In this document: piece by piece, positions 7,062 through 31,536 of the stretch | Numbering within the stretch: the stretch's first letter is position 1 | How the letters are laid out: each line of letters starts with the position of its first letter | Source: Prorocentrum cordatum | Taxonomy: Eukaryota > Sar > Dinophyceae > Prorocentrales > Prorocentraceae | Reading direction: 5' to 3' | NCBI GenBank assembly: GCA_963575745.1 | Contig: CAUYUJ010001368.1 | Coordinates: forward strand, 38,042 to 102,041 | DNA: 64,000 bases | The notes under the pieces: generated by a model | What the model saw: only the letters and a program-made list of their open reading frames with translations | Database searches by the model: none | Told to the model about the DNA's origin: nothing | Program-made: the position numbers and the translations under genes

Positions 7062-8153
7062 CGGGAGGCCAAGCCCCGCTACGTCAGCTCCTCGATGGGG
7101 CGGTGCGACGCGCTATTTGTCACGGAAGTTCACGGTACCACAGGGGCACACGAAGCGCGGCGACCACCGTCAGGGCGCTCAGCTTGGTGGTCTGCGGGCC
7201 CCACCACCCGGCATGCCGGCGTCGGCATTATCATCGCGAACTCTTTCCTAGCGAACTTCGAAGAGAAGCCCCAGTGGACAATCACCCAGCCAGGGCGCGC
7301 TGGGAAGCTGGCACTTCGCGGGCGCCAGGGGGCTGAGTTGGACCTCTACGGCGCGCGCCCTTCACGCCGGGACAGATGCACCTCTTTTCCTGTGCTCCGT
7401 GATCATTTTCGGCAGCGCGTTGGATCAGCGACGTCTCGCCCCGACGCTGCACTTACCATTTTGGGAGATGGTTTCAAGCGGGCACCGGCCGCTCCAGATA
7501 GGCGCGCGACGACCACGGCAACGGCCACAGGGCAGCGAGACCACAGGGGGGAAAACCATGTCCGATCCGTCTTGGCTCAGCCTTTCAAGCGCCACGAGAT
7601 GCACCAGCGGGACATGACGCGCGCCAGTGCTACAGTCGCGGCTGGACCGGCTCTATGGAACCCAGCGCGCGCGCGAACAGCTCGACCAGGAGCTCAAGGC
7701 CGTTGCTTTGGAGTGGCAGCCTGAACTCTCCGGCCATCGAGCAGTCCTCTTTTCTCGGCGAGCTCCGCAGAGACCGATGACAGACGACGTGGGGCTCGCG
7801 GACGGGGCCATCAACCACGTGGACTTCAAGCGCAGGGCGGCTCTGGACTACCACGAGAAGCGCCGGGCTGAGCCAGGGGCGAAGGGACTGAGGTCATTCA
7901 GGCTGCTCAAAACATCCCTGCAGGAGGATGGCGGCCGCCTTTGCCGCGCGCCATGCCGCCGCTGAGTTGGAGGACCGGCTCGGCGCCACGATGAACTATA
8001 TACGGGCTGCAGAGAATGGAGCCACGGGGGGGATCTCCCCCTGTCTCGAACGCCCCCCAGCTGCGCGGGACTTCGTGGACAACCCGCAAGAGGCACCAGG
8101 CAATCTCCCCGTGCATTTGCGGGGTGTCCGCGGCCACGCCCGCGAGCGCGCTT
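7062..8153 (+). pseudogene. LINE ORF2 N-terminal part: APE-like endonuclease
   Basis: A frame around 7095 gives CDALFVTEVHGTTGAHEARR, matching the first strand and catalytic Glu (LQE-x-H type) of AP-endonuclease-like domains of LINEs, followed by HAGVGIIIANSFL, the usual second conserved block. Two frameshifts follow (about 7630 and 7930). The last frame, DRLGATMNYIRAAENG through RGHARERA, is the linker toward the reverse transcriptase. It ends at the giant transposon boundary at 8153; its continuation starts at 27882. The endonuclease nicks target DNA to prime reverse transcription. This copy is broken. Confidence 0.6.
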
Positions 8154-8185
8154 CCCAGAGGTCTGGAAGGACTGTTTTTTAGTCC
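8154..8185 (+). repeat. Left terminal inverted repeat
   Basis: Begins CCCAGAGGTCTG and ends with GGACTGTTTTTTAGTCC (8169-8185), whose exact reverse complement is at 27848-27864. The GGACT/AGTCC pair also makes the end a small hairpin. Confidence 0.8.
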
Positions 8186-8300
8186 GGTGATTATGTTATG
8201 TATGTTGGTCATTATTTATAGTCCCCTTACATATTCGTGTTACATGGTAGTTCGTTAGTTATATACAGTTATTGTTTTTTTTGCTCTGCGCGGAAATGAT
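8186..8300. promoter_or_regulatory. AT-rich left subterminal region
   Basis: Clearly AT-richer than the rest of the window. It contains TATTTATAGTCC at 8213-8224, a word repeated at 27796-27807 near the other end. Subterminal copies of short words commonly serve as transposase binding sites; that role is inferred. Confidence 0.5.
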
Positions 8301-8384
8301 TGACGGTTTGAGCCAAGATGGCCAGTGGATACACGATCGTGCACGCACCTTCTTGAGCCATAACAAGAGAGCACGGCTCGAGGA

Positions 8385-8854
8385 GGATGGAGGAAGAGGT
8401 CGAGGAGGATGAGGACGAGGTCGAGGGGACGAGGGAAGGGGGAGATGGAACGAAGTAGTGGAAAAAGGGGGCACGAGTGTGCGTGGACCGTGACATGCAT
8501 GCAACGCTTGGCTTTCGAAAACCTTTCCAGGCCCCAGGGCTGTCCAGGAGCGAAAATATCTGCCCGCGGGAAGGGCGCGACGCACTGGTCATCAAAAACC
8601 AAGCATTGTGCATTATGGGGGCAATTCCACGTGCGCATCTTGCACATGGTTGTAGAAGAGGATGATCGGGGAGGAAGGGGGGGGCGAAGGGGGGGGAAGA
8701 TGATAAGAACGAGAACGAGATAAAGTATGAAAGGGGGGATGGGGAGGACGATAAAGGAGAAAGAGGATAGGGAGGAGGAGGAGGAGGAACAAAAGGGGGA
8801 TGGGGAGGATGAGTAGTCGTAGTAGCAGTAGTAGTAGTAATAATAGTAGTAGTG

Positions 8855-8900
<46 letters not shown>

Positions 8901-9190
8901 GAGGAGGAGGAGGAGGAGGAGGAGGAGAAATATGAGGGGGGGGGGGGAACATGAGGAGGGATAAGACGATTACGACTAATAATAATAAGAAGGCAATGAC
9001 CAGTAATAACACGAAACGTAAGAATAATACTGCGACGAAGACGACGAGAATTGGGAGGGGGAGTTGGATGGGGGAGGAGGAAGATGAGGAGACGCATGAA
9101 GGGGGAGGAGACAGGAGGAGGAGGAGGTGGAGTAGGAGAAGGAGCAGGAAACGCATGAAAAGGAGGAGAAGGAGGAAGAGAAAGATGACG
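8385..9190. repeat. Purine-rich block with (AGT)n core
   Basis: GGA-rich sequence with a nearly pure AGT/TAG run at about 8813-8900 and GGA runs on either side. Long Ser/Tyr/Thr or Pro/Ser open frames on the minus strand are repeat artefacts. Confidence 0.85.
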
Positions 9191-9314
9191 ACACGCAGGA
9201 GAGGAGAGCCATCACAATTTCCACGCGACGACGGGCCGCAGGTCGTCTGTACTGCACCTGCGCCCGTGATTGACGCGCGGCGGCGGCGGCCGCCGCCGCC
9301 GCGTCTGGCTGGCC

Positions 9315-9596
9315 TCATCGGCTCCTCTGGCCGCGAGTCCTCCTGCGCCTCCTCCGCCGCCTGCCTTCTCCGCCTGGGCTCTTGGCCACGACCCGCGCTC
9401 CTTGGCGCAGTCCTTGCTCGCTCGTCGGAGCGCCCCTGGATGAGTCGGTCCTCGGCGTACCTCCTTTCACCAGCGATAGTGATCCGTTGTGCCACCTGAC
9501 TGTGATGCCATCCTCCGTGATGGCACTGATGTTGCCCGTCTTGCCTTTGAAGGCGACGTCGTCGCCGACGCAGACGTGGCGCTCGAATCTGTGCAC
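9315..9596 (-). CDS. Small KOW/Tudor-like ORF, transposon cargo
   Basis: The 93-codon frame has a compact N-terminal beta-rich segment, VGDDVAFKGKTGNISAITED then GITVRWHNGSLSLVKGG. It resembles a KOW/SH3-like barrel: a VGD-V-x-KG-x-G turn followed by two strands. After about residue 45 it becomes basic and Arg-rich (poly-Arg from the repeat). The start is a GTG or an exon border, so this may be one exon of a larger gene. The role is unknown; such barrels bind nucleic acid or modified peptides. It is the last coding block at the left end of the transposon. Confidence 0.45.
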   Translation of the reverse strand: MHRFERHVCVGDDVAFKGKTGNISAITEDGITVRWHNGSLSLVKGGTPRTDSSRGAPTSEQGLRQGARVVAKSPGGEGRRRRRRRRTRGQRSR

Positions 9597-9667
9597 GAGG
9601 CCGCCCTCGTGGGAACAGATGCACGGCCGCGTCGAGCAGAGACGGGAAGCAAGGTGGACGTGGGCGA

Positions 9668-9865
9668 CGGGGGGAGGAGGATGATGAGGAGGAGGAGGAG
9701 GACGGAAGAGGATGAATGGGGATGATGGGGGGAGGTGGAGGGGGAGGGGGAGGCGGAGGAGGAGGAGGAGGAGGAAGAAGAGGAGCAGGATGATGAGATG
9801 GAAGGGGGGAGTGGATGAGGAGACGGAGGAGGATGACGGGGAGGACGAGGAGGGTCAGGATGAGG
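9668..9865. repeat. GGA microsatellite-like tract
   Basis: Purine-rich GGA/GAGGAT repeats; no coding signal. Confidence 0.85.
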
Positions 9866-9874
9866 ATGCGGTTG

Positions 9875-9936
9875 GTACCGATCATCGATTGTCACCGCTA
9901 ACGGTGAACATCGATGAGTGTCGGTGACCACCGCCG
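9875..9936. repeat. ATCGGTGA-family palindromic block (a)
   Basis: Contains ACCGATCATCGAT, TCACCG, CGGTGAACATCGATGAG and TCGGTGACCACCG, alternating the word CGGTGA and its reverse complement. It lies just beyond the coding block that ends near 9940 on the minus strand. Confidence 0.65.
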
Positions 9937-9939
9937 TTG

Positions 9940-11580
9940 TGCGATGGACGGGGATGCAGCGCGAGCGAGGGTCCTGCGCATCCGCTGTCCTCCTCGGCAG
10001 CTTCCAGCAGTCTGGCGGCACCTTCCCGCGCCTCCGCACCCACTCGCCGCCCGTGTTCCTCTCCAGGAGCAGCTCGGCGGCCTGCTCAGCCTAAGAGGAG
10101 AGAGGCGAGAGGAGGGCAACACATAAGGAACACGCGAGGAGGGATTGATGACTCCAACCGTGTAGTCGGGGTAGGTGTAGTCGGAGCTGCGGCTGGAGCC
10201 CTCCACCTCGCTCAGCGCAGTGCCTCCTCCATGGGCGCCCTCGCTGTACTGGCTGCTGCGCGCCGCCTCCGCCGTCTGCATGGGCGTGCTCCTTGGCGCA
10301 TGGCTCCGACCACGCTGTCCAGCATCGTCCGACACAGGCACCACCGTGCGTACCGAACACCTGGAGCTGCTAGCAGGTATCTCTGTCGGACTTGGCAGCT
10401 CAGTCGGAGTGGGTATCTGAGTCGGACTGGACGGCGGCAGCCTCGACGCGGGCTCGGCGCGGCACCCCTCCGATTTCACCTCTGTCGACAACAGGGGGCG
10501 CATAGAGGAGGAGAAGGAAGCGGGTGAGGATGCGGATGATAAGGATGAATTTGAGGAGGCCGATTACACCGACGAGAATGAGGGATAACGAAGATTATCA
10601 GGACTAATCGGAACATTACTAGCATATGACAATGCGAGGAGGAAGAGGACGAGACGGATTAGAATGACGGGGATGACCTCAACGTCGTCGTCGACGGTCG
10701 CCGCCAATGCCATCTGCACGTCCAACAAGTATTGCCGATCGAGCATCTCATCGGTCTCGGCCACTAGATCCTCAGTTGCCGTGTCCACAGCGACTAGTTG
10801 TCTCCTCTGCCTATCTTTCTGCATGCCGATCAGCTCGCCGCTCAGAAGACGTTCTCGTAGTACTGCTTCGCGATGCTGATTGGTCGCGGTCGCCATCGCC
10901 TTGGCAGATCGCCGCGTGTCCTCCTCAGCCTTTGCCATGTAGATACGCTCCATGCGCTCTGCCCGCCTGGTGTCGCGCTCCTCCTGCTCCCGCTCCCTCT
11001 TCCGTGCCCGCAGCAGCTGCATTGCAGCCTCGAGGCGATCTGCGTCGACGGCGCTGGCGTCGCCGTCCACGTCCACGATGTCTGATCGCCATGTCGCCCG
11101 CGCCATCCTCCGCGGCGTCGTGCTCCTCCTCATCCTCCTCCTCCGATCAGCGCTCTCACCATCGTCACGTTCTCGGCGGCGGCCTCGACTCTCGCTCCGC
11201 CGCCTAGCCCTCCTGCCTGTGGATGAACGGGGCTGGGTGGGTATATAACGGGGGTGGGGAAGAGTGGTATTGGGATGGTGAGTGAGAGGATGCCCACCTT
11301 CTGGCCGAGAGCCAACCACGCTGGCGCTGACCAGGATGAGCCCCCGCCCGCTGTGGCCAGATGGCATTCGCAGCGGTGCCCCCCGTCTCCACGCGTGGCG
11401 GGGGGATGCGCCCGAGGCGCTCGAAGCCCAAGTGGCTGTGGGGGCAGCGGGTGGGATCCCCGACCGTCCCTTTCGACGTGATCGACAGCCCCCTCCTCCT
11501 CCCTCCTCGTCGTCGGTGTCCTCATCGGCATCCGTGTCATCATCCCCCCTCGTGCTCATCTTCCCACATGCCTCCTTCAT
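9940..11580 (-). CDS. Coiled-coil cargo protein, probably multi-exon
   Basis: The clearest part runs from an ATG at 11106 (MARATWRSDIVDVDG) through a long charged helix rich in Arg/Glu (REREQEERDTRRAERMERIY, then RREAVLRERLLSGEL-like spacing) and ends in a hydrophobic stretch near 10600. Two further minus-strand coding-looking blocks follow: 10503-10150 (Pro/Ser/Thr-rich) and 10100-9950 (TGGEWVRRRGKVPPDCWKLP). I infer exons of one gene but did not resolve the junctions. No catalytic motif is visible; a structural or DNA-binding accessory role is possible. Confidence 0.4.
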
Positions 11581-11724
11581 TCCCCGTCATCTGCACCCCC
11601 ACCTCCTCCAGGCCGTCACGTGCTGGACATATGTCGGTTGCGACCCCACGCGCACGCCCCCCCGTTGCAACCGAGCCAGACCCAGGGAGTCTGCGGAAAC
11701 ACGGCTGGCCTGTGACGGGCTACG

Positions 11725-12035
11725 ATGGCGATGAGGTTGTTGATGGTGGTAGTGATGATGGTGGTGTTGGTGGCGCGCATGTTGATGATGTTGTTGATGA
11801 TGATGGCGATGGCAACGATAATACATATGCTAATGTTGAGTGTGATGGGTACGATGCTGGTGTTGGTGATGCCAATGACGATCGTGATGATGGCTGCGTT
11901 GCTGATGAAGCTGCTGAATGTACACATGAGGATGTTGATGTTGATGATGATGGTGATGATAATGATGATGGCGGTGAGTGTGATACCGATGGTAGTGGCC
12001 ATGATGATGACGATGCGGGGATGATGGGTTGATCA
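11725..12035. repeat. GAT/ATG trinucleotide microsatellite
   Basis: Degenerate GAT/GTT repeats give long Asp-rich, Met-rich or Ile-rich frames; no gene. Confidence 0.9.
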
Positions 12036-12452
12036 GGAGCCCGATGATGTCTGGCCAATAGAAATAATTCCACCCCCAGGGTCGCGCGACGGTTACTGCT
12101 GCACGGGAGGAGCAGCATATAAAAGATAGTGGTGACAGGGAAGAGCAGGAGCCCCATCACTAGGGTTAGGCCTGATTGGGGCGATGGTGGCTGGAGGGTG
12201 GACAGGGGGGTGACATGCGTCCTATGTGCGCCAGACTTGTCGGTGTGCTCTAGCATCTACGTCAACATGTGCATGCGAGCGAACGCTGTCGGTGATGTTG
12301 GCCGACCTGTCATCTGCGATTGTGTAGTTCACGTGTGATATATAGTGTCCGTATACTAGTGATGCGACGCGGGTCATTGGTGCGTCTGTGCCTAACAGCC
12401 CATATCCATGCAGCCCCCGACAACGTTCGCCCGCCCGAGACACCCCCAAACC

Positions 12453-13814
12453 TCAGCGCGCGCTCATGGAGCGCCCGCTGTCAGACAACAGAACGCGAAC
12501 CACGATGTGCGCCAACATGGCGCAGAAGTCGCTCGGGTAGTGCGCAGACGAACTCATGGCAGACCTGCGGCCGTTGTACCACCCCTTCTTGCTCCACCCA
12601 GTCGCACCAGTACTCTTGAACCTACGGCCCACTGGAGCTAGTGGGCTAGCGCGGTCACCCAATCTCGATTGCGCATCCTTCTTAGATTTGACAAGCTGGC
12701 GTAGAGCTGCATCGTCACCCGTAGCCCACAGTACTGTTGGTTTCAGAGTAGGTGCTCCCCAGCCTCCCATCCAGAAGAAATATCGTTTAGCCTGGATTCG
12801 GATCATTGTCTTGGCAACGGCTGCGTCGTGAAAGTACATGGAGCCGAGCGGCTGCTCGATCGCGACGTAGACGCCCCTACTCGTCGCCAGGAAGACGATG
12901 TACGACATGCAGGTGATGACACCACAACGCGCGACCGCCACAGCCCCTAGACTCGGAACTGCACGAGCTCATCGACGTTCACCGTGTTCGGTGATCATCG
13001 GTGAGCTTCGGTGAGCCCTGCCCCCCGTCCCCCTTCTGTACGTGTAGATTAAAATCAGACCCCACACTGTGCACATTTATTTACCACATACATTGCTATC
13101 TACATAGTGTGCGTGCCCCCCGAGACGTGTTCAAGTCCGCCCGCAGACGTGATGTACGCCGTATAGTTAGCTTGGCGCACGTCACGTCTCGAAGTGTCCC
13201 CCTCAGTGTTCTTGCGCGTACGTTTGGTGTGTCCAGCTGCTGCCCCTATCCACGTGCTGCATTGCGGCGCCATGTGGCAGACGCCGTTAGGTACCACAGT
13301 GCACACAATGTACACGCAGTAGAGGAGACCCACCTGTGGCCAGATGCAACCATCTCCCACCATATACCATGAGGATGAAAGGGGTAGTTAACACGGGTGG
13401 GGGTGAGCTTGTTGCCACGGGCGATGGCGAGATGAGAGATGCACATGTTGACGAGGATGGCGGGGAATATGGATGACGATACACGGGTGAGTAATATGAT
13501 GGTGTGATGGATGGTGTGATGATTGTCTACCCTTCGTTTACTATCCCAGGTGCAACCAACGTGTAGATATCCTGATGTGGCCCGTCGCACTTGTCGTACG
13601 CCAGCGCCCTGTACCTCAGTATCGAAACACAACGGGACGCTTCGCCTCGCCCTGAGAATACTTCCAGAAAGGCGGTGGTGCGTGGGATCGATGGCGCGTG
13701 GTCAAGTAGAAGGCGAACTGATGCCAGCAGCATTCGCCCACCATGCTCCAGAGTTGTGTCCTCTACCACCCCTTCAGTCCGAAGGCGAGCAGCTCCATCG
13801 ACAGCCCACGCCAT
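12453..13814 (-). CDS. Cytosine-C5 methyltransferase-like protein (transposon cargo)
   Basis: Three exons read in order. Exon 1 (ATG 13814 to about 13557) has motif I (FLEVFSGRGEAS) and the acidic motif II (ALAYDKCDGPHQD). Exon 2 (about 13333 to 13140) has GLLYCVYIVCTVVPNG then APQCSTW, the position of the catalytic Cys motif; the Cys codon is 13259-13261. Exon 3 (about 12950 to stop 12453) has GVYVAIEQPLGS, equivalent to the ENV/ExxP motif VI, then GAPTLKPTVLWATG. A GT-AG intron 13334-13556 keeps the frame. The order I, II, PC, E-x-P matches the Dcm/DNMT fold, though APQC and EQP differ from the canonical PCQ and ENV. Whether it methylates DNA is unproven. The gene starts 66 bases after the transposase stop codon. 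The exon 2/3 junction was not resolved. Confidence 0.6.
12969..13018. repeat. ATCGGTGA-family palindromic block (b)
   Basis: GACGTTCACCG is followed by TCGGTGATCATCGGTGAG and TCGGTGAG. It is within the intron ahead of methyltransferase exon 3, about 20 bases from the exon start. Confidence 0.65.
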
Positions 13815-13879
13815 GCCTGCACCGTGATGCGGAAGGCCAGCGCGCCCCAGACCGCAACGCTGCAGGAACACAGTGATGC

Positions 13880-16800
13880 TCAGATAGGGCCAGATATAAG
13901 CACGAGACATTCCTGGCCCACGAAGTGTTCGCAGATCTGTAACTGAGCTTGCAAGTGAAACAACGAAAACACCCTGGTCTCGAACCGCATTCTGTGTGCA
14001 TACACTGCCACGTCTCTCAGCAGTGAATTTAGTGACTCGTCCAGGAAACACGTATACATCTTCGGCGACCCATGGTCGCTGATCCTGGAGCAGTTTTTGC
14101 ACGCCGAGGTGAACTCGGAAACCTTCACGCCCAGACTAGCCCACGTCCAAACCTGACCCCACCCCCCTGGCACACACGGCTGGTGCATCGTCCAGGCATT
14201 TCCGATGTCGTTGTTTTGCTTGGGGGAGACCGAGCTGCAGGACAGCGACCTGCTTGGGGCGACCGCGTCTAGCGGAACATTGCGCGTGCGATGCATGTCG
14301 CCGATGCGCCTGCTATTCGCAACACCCAGTAGTGGTCCAATACTCGGTCATCGTCAATCCTCCTCGTGGTAGCCTTCTACGTTGCTGTGCACCTACATCG
14401 TTCTACACACCAGCGTCGCCCAATCCCCGCCCCGCGCCCAACGCCCACGCGCCCTGTCCGACTTCCCCTCCCCCCGCCCAGCCGCGCCCGCAGCCATGGG
14501 CACAGCGCGCATGTTGGGGGGGGGGAGGAGTGTGGGCGTTAGGCGGGACATGGATGGGGCGACGCAGTGAGCGAATGCGCCCAGCATGATCGACAGAGGA
14601 CCTAGGCGAGGCGAGGAGAGGAGGGATGTGGGAGGGAAGGAGGGGAGGTAGGAGGCTGGGGAGGGAGGGAGGGAGGTAGGGAGGGCGGGTTTGATTTGAA
14701 CTATCCGCTAACAAAAAAAAAAAAACGCACGCCTGTAGATCAGGTGGCACACCAGGTGGTGCTTAGGCGTGTACGCGATGTGAGCCAGGCGGCAGCTCTT
14801 TAGGTGCACCCACATTGCCATCAGCATCTTGCGCATACTCTCAGGCGGCACGACGCACGTATGGGTGCGCATCTCTTCCAGAAATGTCCCCAACGACAGC
14901 CCAGCATCAATCAGGGCGTCGCCATACGCAGTCCGACCACCGTGTTTACTAAGCAGCTCGTTGGCAAATGGCACCAGGTATCCTATCTCGGCGGCCTTGA
15001 ATGACACAGAGCACCCAGGATGCATCCAGTCCTGCGGTCGGGGGGGAACTCGCTCGAACACTTGCAGACGTTGCGTCCCACTCGTGCCTGTCGACCCCCA
15101 TGGCTCTTTATATCCCGTGTCCCACCGTGTGCATATGCAAACGCGTGCGCATCCATATACATGTATGTATATATCTATAGATATATAGCAGGCGCGCCCA
15201 CGTCGTAGTTTCAGACTCGACCGCCGGCCTGCGTAGTTTTACACAGAACATGTAGGTGCATGTGTGTTACGTAAACCTGCATGCATAGTATGCGTAGCGG
15301 CGGGCTTGACTTGTTATGTGCACGCACGTGTCCACCGTGTGCGTGTGTCTGTGCGCATATACTAATACCATGGGTGGGTTATCTATCTCTCTCTCTCTAT
15401 CGCGCTCTCTCTCTCTCTCTCTCGCGTGTGTATCTACCAATTCCACTCCGACATATGCACCCCCGCACCGCCATAACCACCCTACTAAAACCATGTGGCG
15501 CCTACCCCCCGACATGCGCTGCAGTCGCGCGCACACGCGTTGGGCAGCACCCACACGCACGCCACATTGGAAACCAGAGCGGGGTCCTGCAGCGACCGAC
15601 CCTTGCGGTCCCCAAGCATCTTGAGCGTGAACGTGCCGACCCTGATGGAATGTGGTATGCAGTGTTGTTCTTGCCACAACTGAAGGTCAGCGTTTATGCG
15701 GCGGGAACCAAGCTCGAGAACGTTGTCCAGCGGGCCGCCGTACTTGAACGGATTTCGCAACACAATTCTCCACAATGCAGCGCTCACAAACCGTTGTAGT
15801 GGTCCGTAGTATAGGCAGTGCAGCGAATCTATGGCGAGAGACCGAACTGGACTGGTTCCCAAATGCCTACAGAATAAAGGGCACCTGTGGCTCATCGGGT
15901 CCAAAACTTTGCCACCGACGCCAACTGTTTCCCTCCAGAACGTGATCGTCAGTGGAAGCCGCACACGTTCCAACCAATGTGTGTCCATCAGAGACACAGA
16001 TGGCTCTAACCTGTCTCCTGCTTTGAGGGCGATGCCGTTCACGATAAGGTCAGTGTCCAGAACTCGCCCGCCATGTGACTTCTTGGTTTTCCTAAACTTC
16101 AGCTTCGCCAGCAAATCCCTCCGATCTCTGTCGTGGCGCAATCGCACGTGCACCTCGCACGTCTCGCACGCTGTAAAGAACTCGTCATGTGTGCGAAGTG
16201 GCCAAGGCATCCCGTCGACTAGGTCATCGTAGGAGCCGTGCACCTCGTCCAAGCACATGTGGCAAAAGGAGCAGGGATTGTACAACGACGCCCAGCTCGA
16301 CATGCCCAGTGTTTTCGAATGCTCGGACCAATCGCCTTTGATCCACACCAGGACCCCCTTGAACGAGAGTTCCATATGCGAGCCCAGTGGGTCGTTCGGT
16401 GGCCAGTCTGATCCGTCGTGCCGCCGCGGCGGTCTGCGTCCTCTTGCAATCGCTTCCATCTGCCACCTCGCCACCTCCAAGTGCGGGAATATGGTGCACC
16501 ATCCTTTGCACCCGCACGCGCACATGTCCGATGAGCGGGTCACCGACATCAGGTGTCTCTTTCCCGACAATAAGTTGATCGCCCATATGCCAAGGGTGCT
16601 GTCGGTGCGGCCAGAAGCCGCGGAAATGTAGCGCACCCCGTCTAGATATATGGCGAGTGGAACGGGGAGGTCGTGCCCGTTGGCCACAGCGTCCACCACC
16701 ACAGGATGAGTGGTGTAGCAGGGGAGATCCAGCACGCACGGCTCGCGGACGTCAGGGTCGGAGTTTATCAAATCGAACGTAGCAGGCTCGGTCCGAATCT

Positions 16801-17955: not shown

Positions 17956-18217
17956 CTCATCGGTGCTCATCGGTGAGGGGCTCATCGGTGCGGTGAGCTC
18001 ATCGGCTCCGACCCTGTGATTTCACAGGTATGACGCTCATCGGTATCGATGAGCTCATCGGGGCTCATCGAAATCTCATCGGTGCCGGTGAGCACCGGTG
18101 AGCGCCGGTGAGCCCCCGATGAGCGCCGGTGAGCACCGATGAGCACCGGTGAGCGCCGATGAGCACCGGTGAGCGCCGATGAGCGCCCGATGAGCACCCG
18201 TGAGTCTCGATGAGCCC
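17956..18217. repeat. Minisatellite of GGTGAGC/GATGAGC words (block c)
   Basis: About 260 bp of tandem 8-9 bp words (GCTCATCGGTG, then CACCGGTGAGCGCCGATGAG repeated), an expanded relative of the palindromic blocks elsewhere in the element. It contains an extra hairpin CTGTGATTTCACAG near 18015. It lies downstream of the cargo gene that ends at 18371. Confidence 0.85.
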
Positions 18218-18370
18218 TACAAACCAGATATCCCATGGAGATTTCGGGCAACCCATCAAATTTTTCAAACAAACTGCGAAAATCCAATCGACCACCAAGA
18301 TTTCCCCGCTGGATGGCACATTCGGTCCGAACCACTGAAAGTGTCAAGGCTGATGCAGCCTCGCGAGCAC

Positions 18371-20767
18371 CTACGCTGCCCTCCCCGACCTCTGGCTCTT
18401 CTGAGCCTTGGCGTCCAGCTTGCACTTGTGTACCTGCAGCAGGCACGTCACCAGGCCCGCGATCTTGTGGAGCTTGGGCTCGAGGTTGATGGCGTCCTGC
18501 AAGGCCGCCGAGAAGGGTCCATCCCCGAGCTCCTTCCTGAGCTTCCCAAGGTCGTTCGTCAGGATGCGCGACAAGTTCTCCTTGGTGTGCACGTGCTCCT
18601 GCAGCAGCCTGTGCTGCTTCTTGAGGGCCACGCCGTCATCGTCCTTCAGTGCCCACTGCCACGATTTGTCCGACTCCATGCCAGAGAGGATCGTCATCAC
18701 ATCCGACATCGTCGTCGAGTACATGCTGATGCGCTTCTTTGCATCTGCTGCCAGTTCCTTGATGGGGTCCTTCTCCCTCGGCGTCTTCGCCTTCTTGGGT
18801 TTCTCCTTGCCGCCTGCCGCCTCCTCACCTGCAGGCTGCGCCGCCGCCGCCTCGGCCCCAGCCTTGCCCGCCGCCGCGGGCGCAGCCTTCCTCGCCGCCT
18901 CCTCGGCCGCAGCTGTCGTCGCTGCCACGGCCGCGCCCTCCTGCTGCGCTGCCTCGCCAGCGGTCACCGTGAGCGAACTCGGCCTCGTACCCGCCGTCAC
19001 TGGGTCCTGGCTGGGATGACATACGGGGGCCGCCTGGCCCGACCCTAACCCCCCGCCAATCGTCTCAGATCAGGCTCAGGCAGGGGGGCGGGGAACGACG
19101 TTGCATGAGGCAGAGGATACGGCGACGCCAGAGGAGGACAGAGATGGGGATGATGAGGATTCATAATTCGGAGCAGGCATGAACGATTTAGGAGGGGTGT
19201 CCACGTGTCCTGCCCGCCAGCCGCGATCGCGGCCGTCGGCGCGCCTCCCGCGCAGCCAGTCGATGCCTGGAATTGCATGACTGTATAACGGGGGGGGGAT
19301 CCACAATGAATCTCCAAGGGCTCTTCCGACCGATTTACGATCCTGGGCGAAGTCGTGAGACGCATGCGGGGTCGGGGCACGCGGTGGGCGACGATGGGGA
19401 ATTGACGAGGGGGGTGGGGGAGGGGATGGCAAGGTGAGAGGGGGTAGTATGAGTTGGAGTTGAAAGATGAGTTGGAGGAGGTGGAGGGTTAAGAGGAGGT
19501 TGATGAGACGAGTTGGTCTATGTTCACACCCCTCAACGCCTGTTGACCCTCCAGGCGGCGATCCCGCATGACGTCGCTCTCGATGCTGTCCGACGTCCAC
19601 TGCTCGTACTTAGACCACGCCTCAGTGAACTCAGTGTTCACCCCCTCCGTCACGTACAGTGCCCGTAACGACCTGGTGGCGCTGTCGAACACCACCCATG
19701 GTGGACCTAACTGCATCGCCTGTGTAATGTACCTCACTGCCTGTGGGGCATCCGTACAGCTGGAAGTGGTGGCATGTAGTTGCCGATGTAACTTTGCACG
19801 TGGATATGTAACGTTGTACATGGTTATGGATGTGGTTGCATATTGCTGCGCACTAGTGGTAGAACAGGTCTCGGTGTTGGTTGTGGTTGCGAGGAAGCGA
19901 AGTGAGAGGTGGTTCTTGACGTAGGCTGAGGTGGTTATCGATGCTCGCCGCCAGCGGCAAGCGGGGATGGTTGCATGGGCGGGAGGAGGGTGGCCGAAAA
20001 CACTTGCATTATAACTACAGATGTACGGATTCGACCCACTGTGCCTGCATCCAGCCCAACTTGCCCCCGCCCTCTTTGTGGACGATGCGGCCTAACGGCA
20101 TGTACTGCCCCTTGCGCCATTGCGACTTGACCAGGGTAGTGATCTTCTTCTTCACGACGACGTAGTTCTCGAACGTCTCCTTGGCCCAGTCCTGCCTGAA
20201 CTGCATCTGCGCATCCTGGTTGCCCTTCAGGGCATCATAGTCCTTCTTCATCTGCGGGTTGGCCGCCTTGCGCCGCTCGAACCTCGAGGCGAGGGGGTTC
20301 CCAGCAGCAGCCCTCGCTGGAAATCGAAAGTTGGTCGACTCCGCCGCGCGCCACATAGCAAGCTCACCGAGTGCCTTCGCGTCGAAGCCTGTCGTGTCGA
20401 TCGAGTCGAGCCGCGATGACTCTGCAACGGGCTCCACGCTGCCGTACCCCACCTCGTCGGTCGCCCTCGGCATCTTCACGCACTGCTCCGCATCAGCAAG
20501 CCCCGCAGCCATCGGAGTCAACTCGTCCCGACACACGCCCCTGGCGTCGAAGATCGCGCGCATGTCCGATGAGTGGAAGAACTCGAGCAACATGTTGTTG
20601 ATCCCGATCTCGTCCACAGTCGCCGCCAGTCGTAGCCCGTCCTCGAACCTCAAGAGCTGCGCCTCGATCGAGTGCTTGTGGCGCAGGACTCTCTTGGGCG
20701 GCGTCTCGAACGGCGTCTGTGGCCGCAGTGACATCCAATATTCCGAATCACCATCGATCATTGTCAT
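18371..20767 (-). CDS. Conserved dinoflagellate-type cargo protein, three exon blocks
   Basis: Exon 1 is 20767-20045 (241 codons), with NPLASRFERRKAANPQ and MPLGRIVHKEGGGKLG. Exon 2 starts at 19740 and reads AVRYITQAMQLGPPWVVFD to about 19550. The third block, about 19000-18371, has an Ala/Glu-rich start, a Lys-rich KEKPKKAKTPREKDP and a helical C-terminus ending QRSGRAA. The first intron (19741-20044, GC-AG) is in frame. I recall the same succession (NPL-SR-ER, LPL-RI-EGGG, then a helical C-terminus) in unannotated dinoflagellate proteins, but no function. The exon 2/block 3 junction was not resolved. The order places it directly upstream of the transposase. Confidence 0.55.
19741..20044 (-). 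other. Intron (GC-AG) with 6-bp direct repeat at borders
   Basis: The donor is ATGCAG|GCACAG and the acceptor CCACAG|GCAGTG; CAGGCA occurs at both borders. Splicing joins G-W-M-Q to A-V-R-Y in frame. Confidence 0.6.
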
Positions 20768-20802
20768 TCACCTCCTTGACCTCTCCTCGCCAGCATGACA
20801 GC

Positions 20803-20836
20803 CACCGATGTTCACCGCCAGCGGTGGTCACCGATG
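20803..20836. repeat. ATCGGTGA-family palindromic block (d)
   Basis: CACCGATGTTCACCGCC followed by AGCGGTGGTCACCGATG, between the end of the coiled-coil cargo ORF and the start of the next cargo gene. Confidence 0.65.
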
Positions 20837-22042
20837 CTAGCCAGTTGGGCGGGAAGAGGGCGGCGAATGCACATTGGAGTATCGACAGTGCTCAGGAGGA
20901 TTGGAAGTGCGATGGCTGTGGAGATGGGAGGGAGGAACGACTCGGGCGAGCACCTCCACACGTGCGGGGAGTGCGCCACTATCTCCGCCACATGCCAGGG
21001 GTGCACTCCCAGTCGCCACTCCTGCAGCCGCCTCCGCGCCATCCTCACCAGACACACCTCCAGCCTCGTGGCCGCGCGGTGCCGCCTCGCCGCCTGCAGG
21101 CGCGGACATGCTGCCCCCGTCCGCGATGTCATCTTTGAAGCAGCGACGAAAGAGCTCGGGGTGGTCCGATGGGTTCGGCTGACGATCAGGATATTGACTG
21201 CCACCTGCGCCGCTGAGTCGGGTGTCCCAGCTGTGGCTCGCCTCTGGGTGCGGGGGGGTGCACGGAGCGCCCCTCGTCTCAGCCCGCGACTTCGTCAGGG
21301 TGCGCTCCATGTCCTCCTCCTCCTGCCTCGCCTGCTCCTCATCCTCAGCCGCGGCCGCCTGTGACGCAACCAGCGCTGCCTTCATGTCGGGGTCGTCGGA
21401 TGCACCGCCTGCCTCCTCGGGGCTGTCGTCGATGATGATGGGCGTGGGGTTGTCAGTGGCCGCATCGTTGCCCTCCTCGATGCCGTCGGCCCGCTGCTTC
21501 TTCGATGCCGATGCCGATTCAGCTGGTGCGTCACGCTTCTTGGACAGCTCGCTCACCTGCATCATGAGATCGTTCATCTGCTGCGACTGCGTCTGGATCA
21601 GTTTCTGCATGGACTCGTTCAGCTGCCGCGCCTCCTCCAGCTGCCTGGATTGACTGTCTGCGCGATCCTCTGCATCGCGCACTGCCCTCCACCTCGCATC
21701 CGCCTCCGCCCGCACGGCGCGGGCGCTCTCCTCACCCCCGCGATCAGCTGGCAATGGGACGGCATCGACATCGGACGTGTGCCTCAACTGCGCCAACGGA
21801 GCGGCGTCGTCGCCATCGAGCTGCGCGGCCGCGTTCACGGCCAGCGTCGGCGCCTGCTGCGCGGCGGCGAGCGCGGCAGTGCCATCGGCCACCTGGGTGG
21901 ATGGTGCGGGCTCGGAGTCCTCCCTGGAATCACAGGCCGCCCCCGACATGTCCCCGCCGACGCGGCTGGCGAATGCGCGGCCGATCGGTGTAGTGCGGAG
22001 TGGGCTCCGCGGTACAATGCCCCACTCAACACGGTGCATCAC
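20837..22042 (-). CDS. Coiled-coil protein with SIM- and UIM-like motifs (cargo)
   Basis: A frame of up to 401 codons. Residues about 105-170 form a Gln/Glu-rich coiled coil (ESMQKLIQTQSQQMNDLM). A basic patch KKQR is at 181-184. PIIIDDSPEE (201-210) fits a SUMO-interaction motif: hydrophobic triplet followed by acidic/Ser residues. DDPDMKAALVASQ (216-228) and EEEDMERTLTKS (241-252) resemble ubiquitin-interacting motifs. The C-terminus beyond about 290 is low complexity and may be out of frame or intronic. The true start is uncertain (candidate ATGs at residues 1, 2 and 32). An accessory role in hijacking host SUMO or ubiquitin signalling is inference only. Confidence 0.45.
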   Translation of the reverse strand: MMHRVEWGIVPRSPLRTTPIGRAFASRVGGDMSGAACDSREDSEPAPSTQVADGTAALAAAQQAPTLAVNAAAQLDGDDAAPLAQLRHTSDVDAVPLPADRGGEESARAVRAEADARWRAVRDAEDRADSQSRQLEEARQLNESMQKLIQTQSQQMNDLMMQVSELSKKRDAPAESASASKKQRADGIEEGNDAATDNPTPIIIDDSPEEAGGASDDPDMKAALVASQAAAAEDEEQARQEEEDMERTLTKSRAETRGAPCTPPHPEASHSWDTRLSGAGGSQYPDRQPNPSDHPELFRRCFKDDIADGGSMSAPAGGEAAPRGHEAGGVSGEDGAEAAAGVATGSAPLACGGDSGALPARVEVLARVVPPSHLHSHRTSNPPEHCRYSNVHSPPSSRPTG

Positions 22043-22877
22043 GTCTCGGGGTACTCAAACGGCAGCGAAGCTCGATCGAACCGATTCGATATCGATATGC
22101 CGACACATGATGGTGACGATGTACCTCACACCGTGGCATGACCCTACCTAGTGGTGGTAATGTTGGTGGTGCGTATGGGTGGTAGCCGATGTGGTAGTAC
22201 ACTGGTGGGTCTACATTCACACCCGAACAACCGTGTGGAACGATCGTGTAAGATGTGTTGGTACAGTGATGGTGTCACGTGGTATGTATTGTGGGGGTGG
22301 TGGTGGGACATACGTGCTGTCCATGCTTCTATACCATTCGTACCGAACTCATGCGGCATCTGGTCTATGCCCAGAGGGACCACGTTTTGCTGATGTCGCA
22401 CAGCGCTCAGCGATAAACAGTCAGGCGCCCCGTGCAAGGTGCGCAGGATGCACGCCTACACCACGAGTGACCGAACTCATGAACTGAGTATAGAGAGGGA
22501 TGGGGTGGGGACAGGGCGACCATGAGGAGGAGGATGCCGATGAGGCGGATGATGGTGATGAGGAGGAGTATGCGGAGGATGTCTCCACATAATAACATAT
22601 AAGGTGATGGTGAGGAGCAGGAGCAAGGGCGGGAGAACTGTAACAGCGCGATGGTGCAGCTGTACTTGCGTGCCTGCCGTGTTGGCCCGCTCTCTAGTAC
22701 GTTGAACTCCGTAACCGCCGACGTGCACACCCTTCGTGCATTGGCAAGTGTCCCTCAACCAAGACCCAAGACACCCCATCGCCCTGTCCAACGCAAACCC
22801 GCAACACATGCCAATACACGCACACACATCGCCTATACGCCCCTCTAGAGAGCAAGCTCGAGCCTTATGTGGCTCTA
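22043..22877. other. No gene recognised
   Basis: Short frames on both strands without convincing domains; probably the spacer or introns between two cargo genes. Confidence 0.35.
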
Positions 22878-23876
22878 TCAAAAGTCTGGAATCTCAGTGC
22901 ATCTGGGGGCCCTGGGACGCTGCGGCTGCACAGGCTGACTATCGGACAACGGAGCTGGACCGACTGGCGTCGGCGCCGTCTGCGACGCGACGGGCTGCTG
23001 GGCCGCATCTGACGTGGGGGACTGGATCGGGTCCGCCGGCGTCGGCTTCTTCGGCGTCTCCATCGCCTCGCCCGATCTGGGAGCCTTGGATGCATGCTCG
23101 TGGGCCACATCCGATGCATCCGACGACGGCCGCTTCATGGCCGCACCTCCTGCCGCCGCTGGCCTCCTCCGCGTCGCCTCCTCGGCCTCATCCTCATCCT
23201 CGACCTCGGGCGGACATGTCTCCACCGTCACATCCTTGGTCAGGAAGGCTGCGATGACCGACTTCTCTTCGACTTCTATGTCCGATATGGGCGACTCGTC
23301 CATGTCATTGGTGGCCGCACCTGCATGGCTGCCCCCGCCTGCTCCTTGAACTGCGCCGACCTCGGTGGCCACATCTGAACTGGCCGCATCGCCAGCCTCA
23401 TCCTCCTCCGCTGCATCCTCATCCTCCTCAGCCCCATGCTCCTCATCCCCTGCTTCATCTGCAGCCGTGTCGTCCTTGACAGGCTGCCCGCCCTCGGCGG
23501 CCGCGGCCCCCTTTGCAGCCGCAGGCTTTTTCGGGCAAGCTGCCGCTGGCCGCTTCCTGGCGCCGCGTGCGTCATGAGCCGCGTTCTCCATGAGCCACTG
23601 CCTCTTGGCGTTCTCGAGGTTCGCCTTCGGCTCCCCCTTTGCGTACCTGGCACCCAGGCTCGTCAGGAACTGCGTCGCGTTCGACTTGTCAGCATAACCG
23701 ACGAGCTGCATAACCTGTGTCTTTTTCTCCCTGACGGCCAACTGCAACCACTCCTTGTCGTGCTTCTTGACCAGCTTGACCTGCAGGGCGGAGTCCTCGT
23801 ACGGTATCTGCCACAACACTGCATCTGACACACCAGTTGCAGCCGCCAGTGTATCAGCTGCCGACGCACCAGGCAC
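22878..23876 (-). CDS. RPAAA-rich acidic cargo protein
   Basis: A 332-codon frame starting at a GTG that also follows CAG, so the 5' border may be a splice acceptor (TATCAG|GTGCC). Residues 20-98 look folded (LQVKLVKKHDKEWLQLAVRE, then GYADKSNATQFLTSLGARYA). Residues 107-125 are KRPAAACPKKPAAAKG. There follow a long Asp/Glu-rich tract (131-175), a second basic RRRPAAA motif and a Pro/Ser/Thr-rich tail. KRPAAA tails are common in dinoflagellate proteins. The pattern suggests a nuclear, chromatin-associated protein; the function is not known. Confidence 0.55.
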   Translation of the reverse strand: MPGASAADTLAAATGVSDAVLWQIPYEDSALQVKLVKKHDKEWLQLAVREKKTQVMQLVGYADKSNATQFLTSLGARYAKGEPKANLENAKRQWLMENAAHDARGARKRPAAACPKKPAAAKGAAAAEGGQPVKDDTAADEAGDEEHGAEEDEDAAEEDEAGDAASSDVATEVGAVQGAGGGSHAGAATNDMDESPISDIEVEEKSVIAAFLTKDVTVETCPPEVEDEDEAEEATRRRPAAAGGAAMKRPSSDASDVAHEHASKAPRSGEAMETPKKPTPADPIQSPTSDAAQQPVASQTAPTPVGPAPLSDSQPVQPQRPRAPRCTEIPDF

Positions 23877-23904
23877 CTGATACGACGATCAGCCAAGACG
23901 AGCG

Positions 23905-23981
23905 TCATCGGTATTCATCGATATCTCACTGGTATCGGTGAATGTCGGTGAGGCGTCGGGTCGGCCGATCGTCGCGATTGG
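23905..23981. repeat. ATCGGTGA-family palindromic block (e)
   Basis: GTCATCGGTATTCATCGATA, then ATCGGTGAATGTCGGTGAG, then TCGGCCGATCGTCGCGA. The last word also occurs in block (f). It sits about 25-30 bases upstream of the RPAAA-protein reading frame. Confidence 0.7.
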
Positions 23982-24638
23982 GAGACGTGGTGTGTATTGT
24001 GAGCTCGTGCGCCTTCCACGTCATGGGGTCGGACTCGTCGGAACCTGGCCACGTAGCCACGAGCCGTTTGCTGTCACTGTATATACATGCTGTCGCGTAG
24101 TCCGGCTGCGCACTGGGATTGTCCACTGGTACTCGCCACGCCGCCTGGGAGAGTCAGGATATGCTACCCCCGCCCCCTCCAACCAGCGCACCGTACACGG
24201 ATGTATCCATATCATGGCTGCTGCGATCGACCGATGGGGTACCCCCGACGCTGACCGAAGCTAGTGAATGCCGATGCGAGCACATGGCCCCTTTAATCCC
24301 CCGACCAGTCGATCATCGCACCATGATTGGCACCCATTCATTCAGTTTGAACGTGGCGTGACCGAGCGAGTCGATACGGACGCAAGCCTACCCTCATCGT
24401 TCGAACCGATCGCGCGTGCTCACTACCCGTTGACATCTCAAGCGATTTGGGCAAGGACAGCGCGAGACGCTTCGAATAACACATGCGAACTCTAGGCTGA
24501 TGGTGATGATGAGCACGACGAGACGAGCAAAACCTTGTGTGATATCGCACGCATGGCGAAACGGTCACGAGCGACGATATCATCTAGTCGATCGTGTCTG
24601 GGTTGTCGCACGTGTTCGAGTCAACCGATGTGGATGAG

Positions 24639-24730
24639 GGTGATGCTGACACTGATGATGATGAGGATGATGATGATGATGATGATGCTGATGATGCTGA
24701 TGATGATGATGATGATGATGATGATGAGGT
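24639..24730. repeat. GAT microsatellite
   Basis: Nearly pure GAT repeats with occasional GCT; no gene. Confidence 0.9.
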
Positions 24731-24836
24731 TGCGACTGACTTCGATGCGACTGCGGGACCCGATCGAATATTGGGGCAACCGACGGGGAATGGGACGGTG
24801 CATTGCGATGGTGTAGGTGTGGGGTGTGGAGCATGG

Positions 24837-27489
24837 TTATGTTGCATCTGGCCTGTAGCTCCTTATTGTAGCCCAGCTTGTAGCCGTTCTTCTCGTCAAT
24901 GAAGTCGATCATCTGGCTCTTCGCATGCTTCGTCACCGTGCGGCTGTCGGGCCGCTCCTTCGGGGCAGCGTGATGCCCCCTAGTGGCGGATGTCCGCCCC
25001 TCGGTGGCATCACGCCATCTCTACCTGAAGAGTTGCACGGCTAGCGTCAACTCTCAGACAGCAAATTCAGCACCACCATCATAATCAGCTTACCCCGAAT
25101 CATCATCACCATCATCAGCATCATCAGCATCACCATCACCGTCAGCATCATCATCAGCAGCAGCACCACCATCACCATCAGCATCATCAACATCATCAGC
25201 ATCACCACCGTCAACGTCGTCGTCACCCTCAGCATCAATACCACCATCATCATCGTCGCTTGTACAATCATCATCGCCACAACATCGGCAGCATTACCAC
25301 TATCATCACCATCATCTATACCACCCTCATCGTCATAGCCATTACCACACGCAGCGTCACCGCCGTCATCGGCACTGCCACCATGATTATCATCGCACCC
25401 GCCACCATCCCCAATCATCATGATCATACGGTTTAGTCTCGCCAGAATACCCGCCGCCCGTGCTCACACTCTTCACCACCCCCCATTCATATACCACAGT
25501 CATTGTTCCGCATCCTAACCCCTGACCCATCTTCGTTGTTCCAACACGTACCTTCACGAGCTGCGCATTGTTCATCACATCGATAAGCATCTGGATTTCA
25601 GCATCTGGGACGTCGGCATCAATTGCGTCCCTCAGCACGTGCACTTGGGACTCCATCATCGCGTCCCACAGACCCTCCACGGCCTCAACCCACGCCCACG
25701 CATCGTCACTCGCTTCCCTCATGGCGCTCAGCGCGAACTCAGCGATGTCCTCTGCTCGTCGGCCTCCTCATCCTCCGTCCTCTCCTCATCCTCCTCCTCG
25801 TCGTCCGCGTCCTGCTCCCCATCCCCCTCCTACAATCTCTCCCCCCATCACCCCCCCCGCCCTCATCGGCACCCTCCTCGTCCTCCTCCTCCGTATCATC
25901 CTCCTATCCGTCCTCCCCCATCCTTCTCCTCATCCTCGTCCGCGTCCGCCTCCTCATCCTTCTCTTCGTCTTCTTCAGTATCATCATCCTCATGATCCTC
26001 ATCGTCATCCTCCGCATCATCATCATACTCATCAGTGTCACCAAGCTCAACATCCTCCTCATCCGCATCCTCCTCCTCGCCCACATCATCTTCTTATTCC
26101 TCAGCATCCTCCTCCGTATCATCCTCCGCCTCCCCCTCATCATCATCTAACTCGTCCCCATCAGCCTCGTCCTCCTCCGTGTCTCCGAACCCCATCCAAA
26201 CATACGCGGGTCCTTGTCGGTTGTCTGTTCGTCGTCCAGGGCAAACTGCTTGACCCACTCGGGCGACTTGGGCTTCCTGGCGGATGCCCGCCCCCGCCTA
26301 CCCCCCATTGGCCGCCCGTCGTTTCTCATTGTTCCACTTGTGCCATCTGCGGAGATGGGCACAGGCAGCAATGACGAGACAACTGGGGCTGAGGATGCAT
26401 GGCGCGGCAGAGGATACGTAGAGTGAAGGGAGGGGGGAGGAGGAACTGGACAAGGGCTGAGGGACGCAGCATTAAGAACCAACGTGGAGGCGGGATGCAT
26501 GCGCCCTCAGCCCCGTGCATTCCCCCGTTTCGCTCAAGCCCGATATCCTGTTGATGGCCTTATTCACGTGGCGCAACATCGCCCTCATCATATTAGCATT
26601 GTCCGTCGCCCACGCTCGAGTGGACTTGCTCAGCTTCCACCTGCTCTCATTCGCCAAGGCCACCTGCAGCAACGCAGCCTGCGCGAACGAACGAATGAAC
26701 GCGAGCCGCGACGATCGGCCGACCTGGACGTCATCGACGCTCACCGCATATCACCGAAATCGGTGAGCGTCGGTGAGCTCAACATCGGCCGATCGTCGCG
26801 ACTCGGGAGAAGAGATGTTTAGGTTCGTGACGGAATGGATGTGATGAATAGGAACGGTTACCATTGTGTTAATAACCGTTCCTACCCACCACACCCCAGG
26901 GCTATGGCCTCGGCCACCTTCTGACATACACCTCCGACGCGGCACACTGCTCTGGTAGCCCTCAGCAAGTCCAGTTGTTTCACCAGCTCCTCTACATTAT
27001 GCTCATCCTCGAGATTTGTCGTGTAGTTCAACCTTATGCGGGGGGGCGCCATGAGATGGATAGGCACAGCATGATCAGTGACCATCTACGTATGAGGGGG
27101 AACGAGTCACCCAACGGACGATCAGCGTCATTGAGGGGGAGGACACGGGCAATCCCGCACAACAGGCTTAATCATAGCGAGGGGAAGCCCGACAGATACG
27201 GGCAATGATACATGCAGGGCGTACAACGCTGATAATGTCAAGGTGGGGGGCCAAGGGTAGGATGCCAGGAGCGAGTATGTGCACGACGGGTCTGTCCTCA
27301 GCTCCTCTCTCACATCGTCATCCTCATCCTCATCCTCATCCTCATCTTCCTCATCAGCACCGACCGCCGCAGGGTATAAGGACGCGGCTTGTCTGGCACT
27401 GTGATGTGCTCCGTCCACACTGCAGCTAGTTTCTCAGCGTCTGCATTACTGGCTGGCCGCGGGGGTGCCTTCGATCCTTTTGGGGGCAT
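24837..27489 (-). CDS. Multi-exon cargo gene of unknown function (first gene from the right end)
   Basis: The ATG at 27487-27489 opens a short N-terminal exon, MPPKGSKAPPRPASNADAEK, then WTEHITVPDKPRPYTLRR. Further minus-strand coding-looking blocks follow: about 27030-26890 (RLNYTTNLEDEHNVEELVKQ), 26678-26500 after CAG|G (LQVALANESRWKLSKSTRAW), about 26330-26180 (KPKSPEWVKQFALDDEQ), about 25750-25400 (VEGLWDAMMESQVHVLRDAI) and about 24970-24840 (TKHAKSQMIDFIDEKNGYKL). Each is a plausible alpha-helical segment flanked by microsatellite-rich DNA. Junctions were not resolved, so they could be two genes. No known domain was recognised. Confidence 0.4.
25065..25430. repeat. CAT/ATC microsatellite
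   Basis: Imperfect CAT, CAC and CAG triplets, probably intronic to the multi-exon cargo gene. Confidence 0.85.
25740..26200. repeat. TCC/TCA pyrimidine-rich tract
   Basis: Imperfect TCC and TCATCC repeats that read as poly-acidic on the minus strand; either an intron or an acidic coding tract could be present. Confidence 0.8.
26702..26810. repeat. ATCGGTGA-family large palindrome (f)
   Basis: The longest member. The left arm CGCGACGATCGGCCGA ... CGCTCACCGCATATCACCGA is mirrored on the right as ATCGGTGAGCGTCGGTGAG ... TCGGCCGATCGTCGCGA. The arms are about 50 bp with a few mismatches. It lies in the intron ahead of the cargo exon starting at 26678. Confidence 0.75.
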
Positions 27490-27786
27490 CCTTACAGACC
27501 ACTCTTAGTCATGTGTGGGATCTCAGCCAAAACGGCTGCGCACCGTTCTCCTCCCCTTCCTCAGCACAAGCATTTCTTTTCTAATCCTCTCTTTTCTAAT
27601 CCTCCTGCTCCACCCTCTCTCCGCCCTTCCCCCGCTTTTTTTGTTTTTGTTTGAAGAAACACTGCGGACAAGGGAAAGGAACGCGTAACGCTGTGGACAA
27701 GACGGTCGAACGCTTGACGCGCACGGGCTATTAAGAACATGTCTGCAATTTATATGTAAAACAACACTTTTTCTGCACGCAGAACG

Positions 27787-27831
27787 CATCGGGACTATTT
27801 ATAGTCCTGGGTATTATTTTTAGTCCCGATG
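27787..27831. repeat. Right subterminal 45-nt inverted repeat
   Basis: CATCGGGACTA (27787-27797) is mirrored exactly by TAGTCCCGATG (27821-27831), with a nested GGACTATTTATAGTCC. These are additional copies of the GGACTA/TAGTCC word found in both TIRs. Confidence 0.8.
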
Positions 27832-27847
27832 TTTAGTTAGCACAGCA

Positions 27848-27879
27848 GGACTAAAAAACAGTCCGGTCAGACCTCAGGG
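27848..27879 (-). repeat. Right terminal inverted repeat
   Basis: Reverse complement of the left TIR with 4 of 32 mismatches, ending CAGACCTCAGGG and followed by TT. Confidence 0.8.
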
Positions 27880-27881
27880 TT

Positions 27882-31046: not shown

Positions 31047-31062
31047 ATTTGTTTAGTCCTCG

Positions 31063-31138
31063 TTCCTCTTCTTCTTATTATTATTATGATTGTTCTTATT
31101 CGTATTCGTCTTATTATTATTATTATTAGTATTAGTAA

Positions 31139-31192
<54 letters not shown>

Positions 31193-31505
31193 CATCATTA
31201 TTGTTATTGTTCTTATTATTCTTATTCTTCTTACTTTTCTTCTTATTCTTATTATTATTATTATTAGTATTATTCTTCTTCTTATTATGATTAGTATTAT
31301 TATTATTAGTAGTAGTAGTAGTATTCTTATTCGTAGTATTATTATTTTTCTTCTTATCATGATTATTAGTATTGTGATTGTCATTATTATTATTATTATT
31401 TGTATTATTATTAATATCATCATTATTAGTCTTATTATTTTTTATAATTAATATTATTCGTATGATTATTATTATTATTATTATTATTATTCTGCTTATT
31501 AGTAT
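31063..31505. repeat. ATT/TTA microsatellite
   Basis: About 440 bp of imperfect ATT with CTT and AGT variants, directly upstream of the truncated LINE F frame. Long Ile-rich or Leu-rich frames are artefacts. Confidence 0.95.
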
Positions 31506-31536
31506 TCTTCTTACGTAGTTTTATGTATAGCCGCAC

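Follow-up and report, generated by a model that had tools for sequence, protein, structure and literature searches.

A 64,000-nucleotide stretch of the genome of the dinoflagellate Prorocentrum cordatum (contig CAUYUJ010001368.1; hereafter the window) contains a 19.7-kb cut-and-paste DNA transposon that has recently been active in this species. The element proper spans 19,726 bp (8154-27879), has terminal inverted repeats (TIRs) opening with CCC and closing with GGG, is flanked by a 2-bp target site duplication (TSD), and encodes a transposase whose predicted shape resembles that of RAG1, which in vertebrates cuts the genes for antibodies. We tentatively suggest that the transposase family, with these ends, palindromes at the ends and 2-bp duplications, may be a superfamily-level lineage of RAG1-core transposases that has not been described before, one that is distributed among algae and still active in a dinoflagellate.

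Results

Borders, target site and copies

The leftmost 32 bp of the element match the reverse complement of the rightmost 32 bp at 28 of 32 positions, while the runner-up placement in the whole window reaches 19/32. With up to three mismatches allowed, the TIR pattern occurs at two sites in the window, one at each end of the element (8154-8185 on the plus strand and 27848-27879 on the minus strand), and in none of 100 shuffles. Palindromes of the form GGACT..AGTCC (spacer of 2-12) are present exactly three times in the 19,726 bp, each within 90 bp of an end: at positions 16-32 of both ends and at positions 73-88 of the right end.

The genome searched comprises 4,128,499,153 bases in 21,875 contigs, and the counts of end matches are lower bounds. 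Including the window's own, it holds at least 11 matches of at least 117 bp to the left end and at least 11 matches to the right end; at least five further left-end matches cover the terminal 34-48 bp only. Nine of the ten other long left-end matches start exactly at the base corresponding to 8154, and one (C8447) starts one base earlier; the left flanks of all 11 differ from one another and lie on 11 contigs. CCC stands at 11/11 of the long left ends, all of which carry CCCAGAGGTCTG, and GGG at 10/11 of the right ends (AGG in C20355); the right ends deviate from the border sequence by one base in C16949 and C1603 and by two bases in C20355. The agreement of the two ends, the absence of their pattern from the shuffles and the borders shared among copies bear out the preliminary description of this DNA, which had proposed a TIR DNA transposon with exact borders. 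A lack of second copies, or copies with other borders, would by that description have spoken against it, and neither turned out to be the case. The interval it gave, 8152..27881, has the right borders and takes in both copies of the duplicated TT.

That duplication had also been noticed beforehand, and TT is indeed present at both borders (Table 1). Nine copies, the window's included, have both ends, and eight of these were scored for a TSD (C9047, with an N on its right side, was left out): six of the eight carry a 2-bp duplication (TT, AT, TA, TA, AG and AA), and two show a mismatch (TG/TA in C20355 and TC/CC in C18543). Flanks agree at three or more bases in 0/8 copies, and in a control with mismatched flank pairs, agreement at two bases was seen in 4/56.

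The complete copies differ in their substitution distance to the window's copy, from 0.17% (C19988), 0.21% (C8447) and 0.45% (C299) to 2.2% (C9047), 2.8% (C16949), 3.0% (C20355), 3.6% (C1603) and 4.1% (C18543), and the closest of them record recent spread. Three more copies (C13874, C5037 and C2996) are cut by contig ends; C299 and C2996 are taken as one locus because the compared 40 bp of right flank are identical between them. When variable sites over all copies were sorted by codon phase, there was no clear signal, and a weak one on shared changes. The contig of C9047 also bears a lone right end (L018/L029, right end at 50905) of about 2.1 kb at 90% identity, some 10 kb from the complete copy, and older copies (L040-L042, L046-L048) contain nested insertions of 1.5, 2.3 and 3.3 kb along with shorter A-rich ones.

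The five short end matches belong to other families, as judged from one end each (701 or 801 bp). Four of them (L051, L052, L053 and L054), with 97-99% mutual identity over 351-437 bp, form a second family: its 34-bp end is the same (33/34), one palindrome lies at 16-32 and another at 53-70, and the interior sequence is different. The fifth (L050, 381-454) stands for a third family, with a similar terminal repeat, a palindrome at 16-32 and a second at 54-72, followed by different sequence.

The transposase and its relatives

The first exon of the transposase gene sits in a stop-to-stop open reading frame (ORF) of 575 amino acids (15488-17212), the largest on the minus strand of the element. 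Among 8000 scored candidates, 75 homologues of this ORF were found at E ≤ 0.001, the closest being a protein of the green alga Pyramimonas (52%); EukProt Pyramimonas entries account for three of the 75, and ENA, JGI, LGN or NCBI sources for the rest. None of the 75 carries a Pfam domain; the family, an unnamed one with no Pfam model, extends to Pyramimonas. In a tree of 62 rows the window's protein and the best Pyramimonas homologue group together (100/97). The relatives in three EukProt Pyramimonas entries (P0001, P0008 and P0031) fall in separate parts of the tree, which may reflect several lineages in that alga, or contamination.

The window's protein carries a complete set of motifs in the order D-D-C(2)C-H(3)H-E. 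Over all 75 homologues, with gapped rows excluded, the first D is conserved in 65/67, the second D in 74/74, both C in 74/74 and the first H in 34/34, and the preliminary claim of a transposase-like protein inside the element is upheld by these homologues, by their conserved D, D, C and C, and by the predicted fold. In a preselected set (19 homologues and the window's protein) the D, C, H and E positions are conserved in 19/20 or 20/20; this conservation is not independent, because the pattern used to pick the set demands H, H and E. The second H and the last E occur in the majority of relatives long enough to include them (28/35 and 21/26 of all rows), and these two columns weigh against our interpretation: in the 56 rows that were not picked, the first H is found in 15/15, the second H in 9/16 and the E in 2/7. 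Since the recounted H and E columns are less conserved, our confidence in the best explanation is slightly lowered.

A structure model bearing on exon 1 (pLDDT 87.1) contains the RNase H strands. A full-length relative is predicted to adopt a fold that matches the greater part of the RAG1 core (460 residues, chain 480-1029), and RAG1, BbRAGL and HzTransib head its structural matches; as modelled, the transposase has a RAG1-core-like fold. No chain in the PDB was matched by sequence at E ≤ 1.

Other genes of the element and its surroundings

Most gene pieces are open in the six young copies (the window's, C8447, C19988, C299, C13874 and C5037). A methyltransferase-like enzyme had been listed among the genes beforehand. 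The exons concerned, at 13760-12456, contain motifs (FLEVFSG, APQCSTW, IEQP and KPTVLW) that recall those of C5 methyltransferases; the identity draws no support from any search made. The exon-joined query gave no match in Pfam at E ≤ 5, in PHROGs at E ≤ 5 or among 1086 candidates of the protein collection, two chance-like matches only in the PDB (E of 2 and 4.5), and, for exon C, none in viral contigs. All three pieces are open in 5/6 young copies, the window's included; in C5037 a stop interrupts the last one. Companion gene B, which may encode an accessory protein, has its first and last exons open in 6/6 young copies, the window's included; 0/7998 scored candidates were homologous at E ≤ 0.01, and there was no convincing Pfam match.

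The element has 96 ORFs of 100 amino acids or longer; 62 of them were scanned with Pfam, and no convincing domain came to light. DUF5363 was matched at E 8.1e-4 in one of 42 element ORFs scanned, and near-misses under their cut-offs (PIN_TASOR at 0.0057, Rrn6_HB at 0.024 and others) were taken as chance. Matches in PHROGs were all weak, the strongest (E 0.0073) being that of the ORF at 20840-22054. The same 62 ORFs gave no match to kelch, the domain that would point to a RAG2-like partner, although introns could hide such a gene. The arrangement of about eight gene blocks, all on one strand, needs revision: because the transposase alone spans three blocks, there are fewer genes than blocks, with at least some of the blocks being exons, and the single orientation holds for the transposase (minus strand) and is not borne out beyond it, as 50 of the 96 ORFs lie on the plus strand. 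Tandem 10-bp repeats (GCCGGTGAGC-like) occur at 18074-18225, between gene B and the transposase.

Table 1. Features of the element and its flanks (window coordinates)
Feature	Position	Strand	Remarks
Left TSD copy (TT)	8152-8153		
Left TIR	8154-8185	+	Begins CCCAGAGGTCTG; 8154 is the first base of the element
Terminal palindrome GGACTGTTTTTTAGTCC	8169-8185		Candidate transposase-binding site
Methyltransferase-like gene	12456-13760	-	About three exons (FLEVFSG; APQCSTW; IEQP...KPTVLW); frame reading, motif-level resemblance
Transposase exon 3	13883-14077	-	FLDESLN, last catalytic E; start approximate; aligns with full-length homologues
Transposase exon 2	14732-15028	-	PKHHLVCHL, H(3)H motif; ends approximate; aligns with full-length homologues
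Transposase exon 1	15581-17185	-	First D (YLDGV), CxCGCxGWC, second D (KGDWxE), C(2)C, DRLEPS, DxLH; probable exon ends, from homologues
Companion gene B	18374-20767	-	Two to three exons (20018-20767; part of 19492-20091; 18374-19069)
ORF of 405 amino acids	20840-22054	-	Best PHROGs match weak (E 0.0073)
ORF of 336 amino acids	22881-23888	-	
Second, subterminal palindrome GGACTATTTATAGTCC	27792-27807		Right end
Right TIR	27848-27879	-	Contains palindrome 27848-27864
Right TSD copy (TT)	27880-27881		
Host LINE reverse transcriptase	28477-29151	+	RVT_1, E 1.9e-12

The element had been described as splitting a long interspersed nuclear element (LINE) between its endonuclease and reverse transcriptase halves. 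The reverse transcriptase half is confirmed by its Pfam match; for the endonuclease half, five ORFs upstream of the insert gave no Pfam match at E ≤ 0.01. When the flanks are joined minus one TT, the reading E-R-A-W-A-E-L-G-K-V is reproduced within an open frame of 307 amino acids. The other two frames likewise cross the join without a stop (187 and 153 amino acids), and the open frame by itself is therefore weak evidence for the insertion site. Farther downstream (31531-34683, plus strand), just after a trinucleotide array of about 0.5 kb (approximately 31012-31490), lies a stop-to-stop frame of 1050 amino acids that matches nothing in Pfam at E ≤ 0.001.

Discussion

Published descriptions of DNA transposons, of which we draw on parts, provide several points of comparison. 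The CMCT clade of DDE transposons is described as comprising EnSpm/CACTA, Mirage, Chapaev, Transib, Plavaka, ESTA and Lanisha, with TSDs of 2-5 bp and, in most lineages, CA..TG termini (PMC12730594). The element shares with this clade the order D-D-C(2)C-H(3-4)H-E, a TSD inside that range and a predicted RAG1-related fold, whereas its termini are CCC..GGG and no similarity is detectable with Pfam. It might still be a CACTA/EnSpm element proper, or a Plavaka element, with drifted termini and no claim to a separate lineage, an account that we consider rather unlikely. Soybean CACTA Tgmt*, reported at 20.5 kb, has TIRs and subterminal repeats and carries a large spliced gene (PMC2613891), and the element resembles it in size, in its TIRs, in the repeats beside its ends and in its own large, probably spliced gene; for Plavaka, a TSD of 2 bp (PlavakaA, in fungi) or of 2 or 3 bp (PlavakaB) is given, with C(2)C and H(3-4)H in the same order (PMC12730594). 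Against such kinship stand the termini, which are neither CACTA or CAC..GTG nor the TGT..ACA (PlavakaA) or CATCA..TGATG of Plavaka, and the result that 0/40 members of the transposase family match a Pfam transposase model (CACTA and Plavaka among them) at E ≤ 1, although remote kinship could escape such models. Tgmt* also has tnp2 and TNP1 domains, none of which was recognised in the element. The fold lists include no CACTA protein and therefore say nothing on CACTA kinship. With Tgmt* as a precedent, a size of about 20 kb, which the preliminary description had called unusual, is not new.

Kinship with RAG1 itself can be read more narrowly, with the element as a RAG-like (RAGL, ProtoRAG) or Transib transposon residing in a protist. 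The C2 and H2 motifs, of the zinc type, keep the order found in RAG1, RAGL and Transib, and no RAG2-like partner was recognised among the 62 ORFs scanned. The predicted fold of the full-length relative, with its three best structural matches, speaks for this account; yet RAGL and Transib elements are described as having TSDs of almost always 5 bp and CAC ends (PMC7204232), and the element departs from both of these defining features with its 2-bp TSD and CCC ends, besides lacking sequence similarity to any PDB chain (E ≤ 1), and we regard this account as very improbable. Still less probable is the integration of a TIR-using virus or Polinton-like element. A length of about 20 kb, several ORFs and TIRs would suit it (Polinton-like viruses are reported at 14-40 kb; PMC12220804), but the scan of 62 ORFs, unspliced, recovered no viral hallmark (no polymerase, integrase, capsid or packaging gene), the TSD is of 2 bp, and the DDE transposase is the only recognisable enzyme. 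Scans for giant-virus or prokaryote carriers, with one to six peptide patterns each and one DNA pattern (a single pattern for prokaryotes), found none, and a viral origin is unlikely because viral contigs hold no relatives or ends by the patterns tried. An assembly artefact deserves next to no credence: the same left border recurs at 11 different flanks on as many contigs.

A further question is whether the window's copy moved by its own means. Its genes could be dead and the copy a passenger mobilised in trans by the transposase of another, as might be suspected from C299, in which exon 1 is split over two frames at a distance of just 0.45%, from the five older copies, four of which have a broken exon 1, and from the two further families that share the ends. 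Exon 1, however, is open over 575/575 residues, and exons 2 and 3 are open too, in the window's copy as in C8447, C19988, C13874 and C5037, and we consider passive movement unlikely. We also rejected the element as an autonomous partner of the dinoflagellate Introners (as described in parts of PMC9860276 and PMC10666404), since nothing ties its ends to introns.

The insert is best explained, and very probably, as an autonomous cut-and-paste DNA transposon with a RAG1-core-like DDE transposase, encoded by at least three spliced exons on the minus strand and acting with a 2-bp stagger. In the mechanism we propose, the three exons would be spliced into one message, and the window's copy would itself encode a working enzyme. 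The fold of this enzyme would combine an RNase H catalytic domain, with D, D and E, and a zinc site to which C(2)C and H(3)H contribute. The transposase would bind the 32-bp TIRs together with the GGACT..AGTCC palindromes that lie within or next to them, pair both ends, and then excise the element, probably via a hairpin route by analogy with RAG1 and Transib, for which hairpin formation during excision is a known feature. Joining to a new site takes place with a 2-bp stagger, as the 2-bp duplications that flank the copies show, and leaves such a duplication behind.

The preliminary description was right as to the type of element, its borders, the TT duplication, the position next to a reverse transcriptase gene and the presence of a transposase, and it missed the kind of transposase, the wider family and the palindromes of the ends. 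As far as the parts of the published descriptions used here go, the combination of CCC..GGG ends, a 2-bp TSD, end palindromes and a family of predicted RAG1 fold with no Pfam model fits no lineage that they set apart, and among the open-access papers listed by searches aimed at such an element in dinoflagellates, no title or abstract opening names one. Mobile elements that carry a DNA methyltransferase (DNMT) gene are reported, namely LINE and DIRS elements in Symbiodinium and DNA transposons in marine viruses (PMC5890265); if the methyltransferase reading of 12456-13760 is right, the element would share this association, whereas the Symbiodinium elements are retrotransposons with a Pfam-detectable domain, and here the carrier is a DNA transposon and no domain is detectable.

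For dinoflagellates, the element is a complete, young, multi-copy DNA transposon whose ends, target rule and transposase are all in hand, and other families can therefore be found by the same ends. Its transposase family has remained outside Pfam despite relatives in Pyramimonas and many assemblies. If the methyltransferase-like gene is what its motifs recall, at least one element of the lineage may have captured a DNA-modifying gene. A predicted RAG1-like core outside animals would offer an outgroup for how the domain plan of the V(D)J enzyme arose, and, should the lineage that we tentatively propose prove real, it would supply an independent, non-animal branch for rooting the origin of RAG1.
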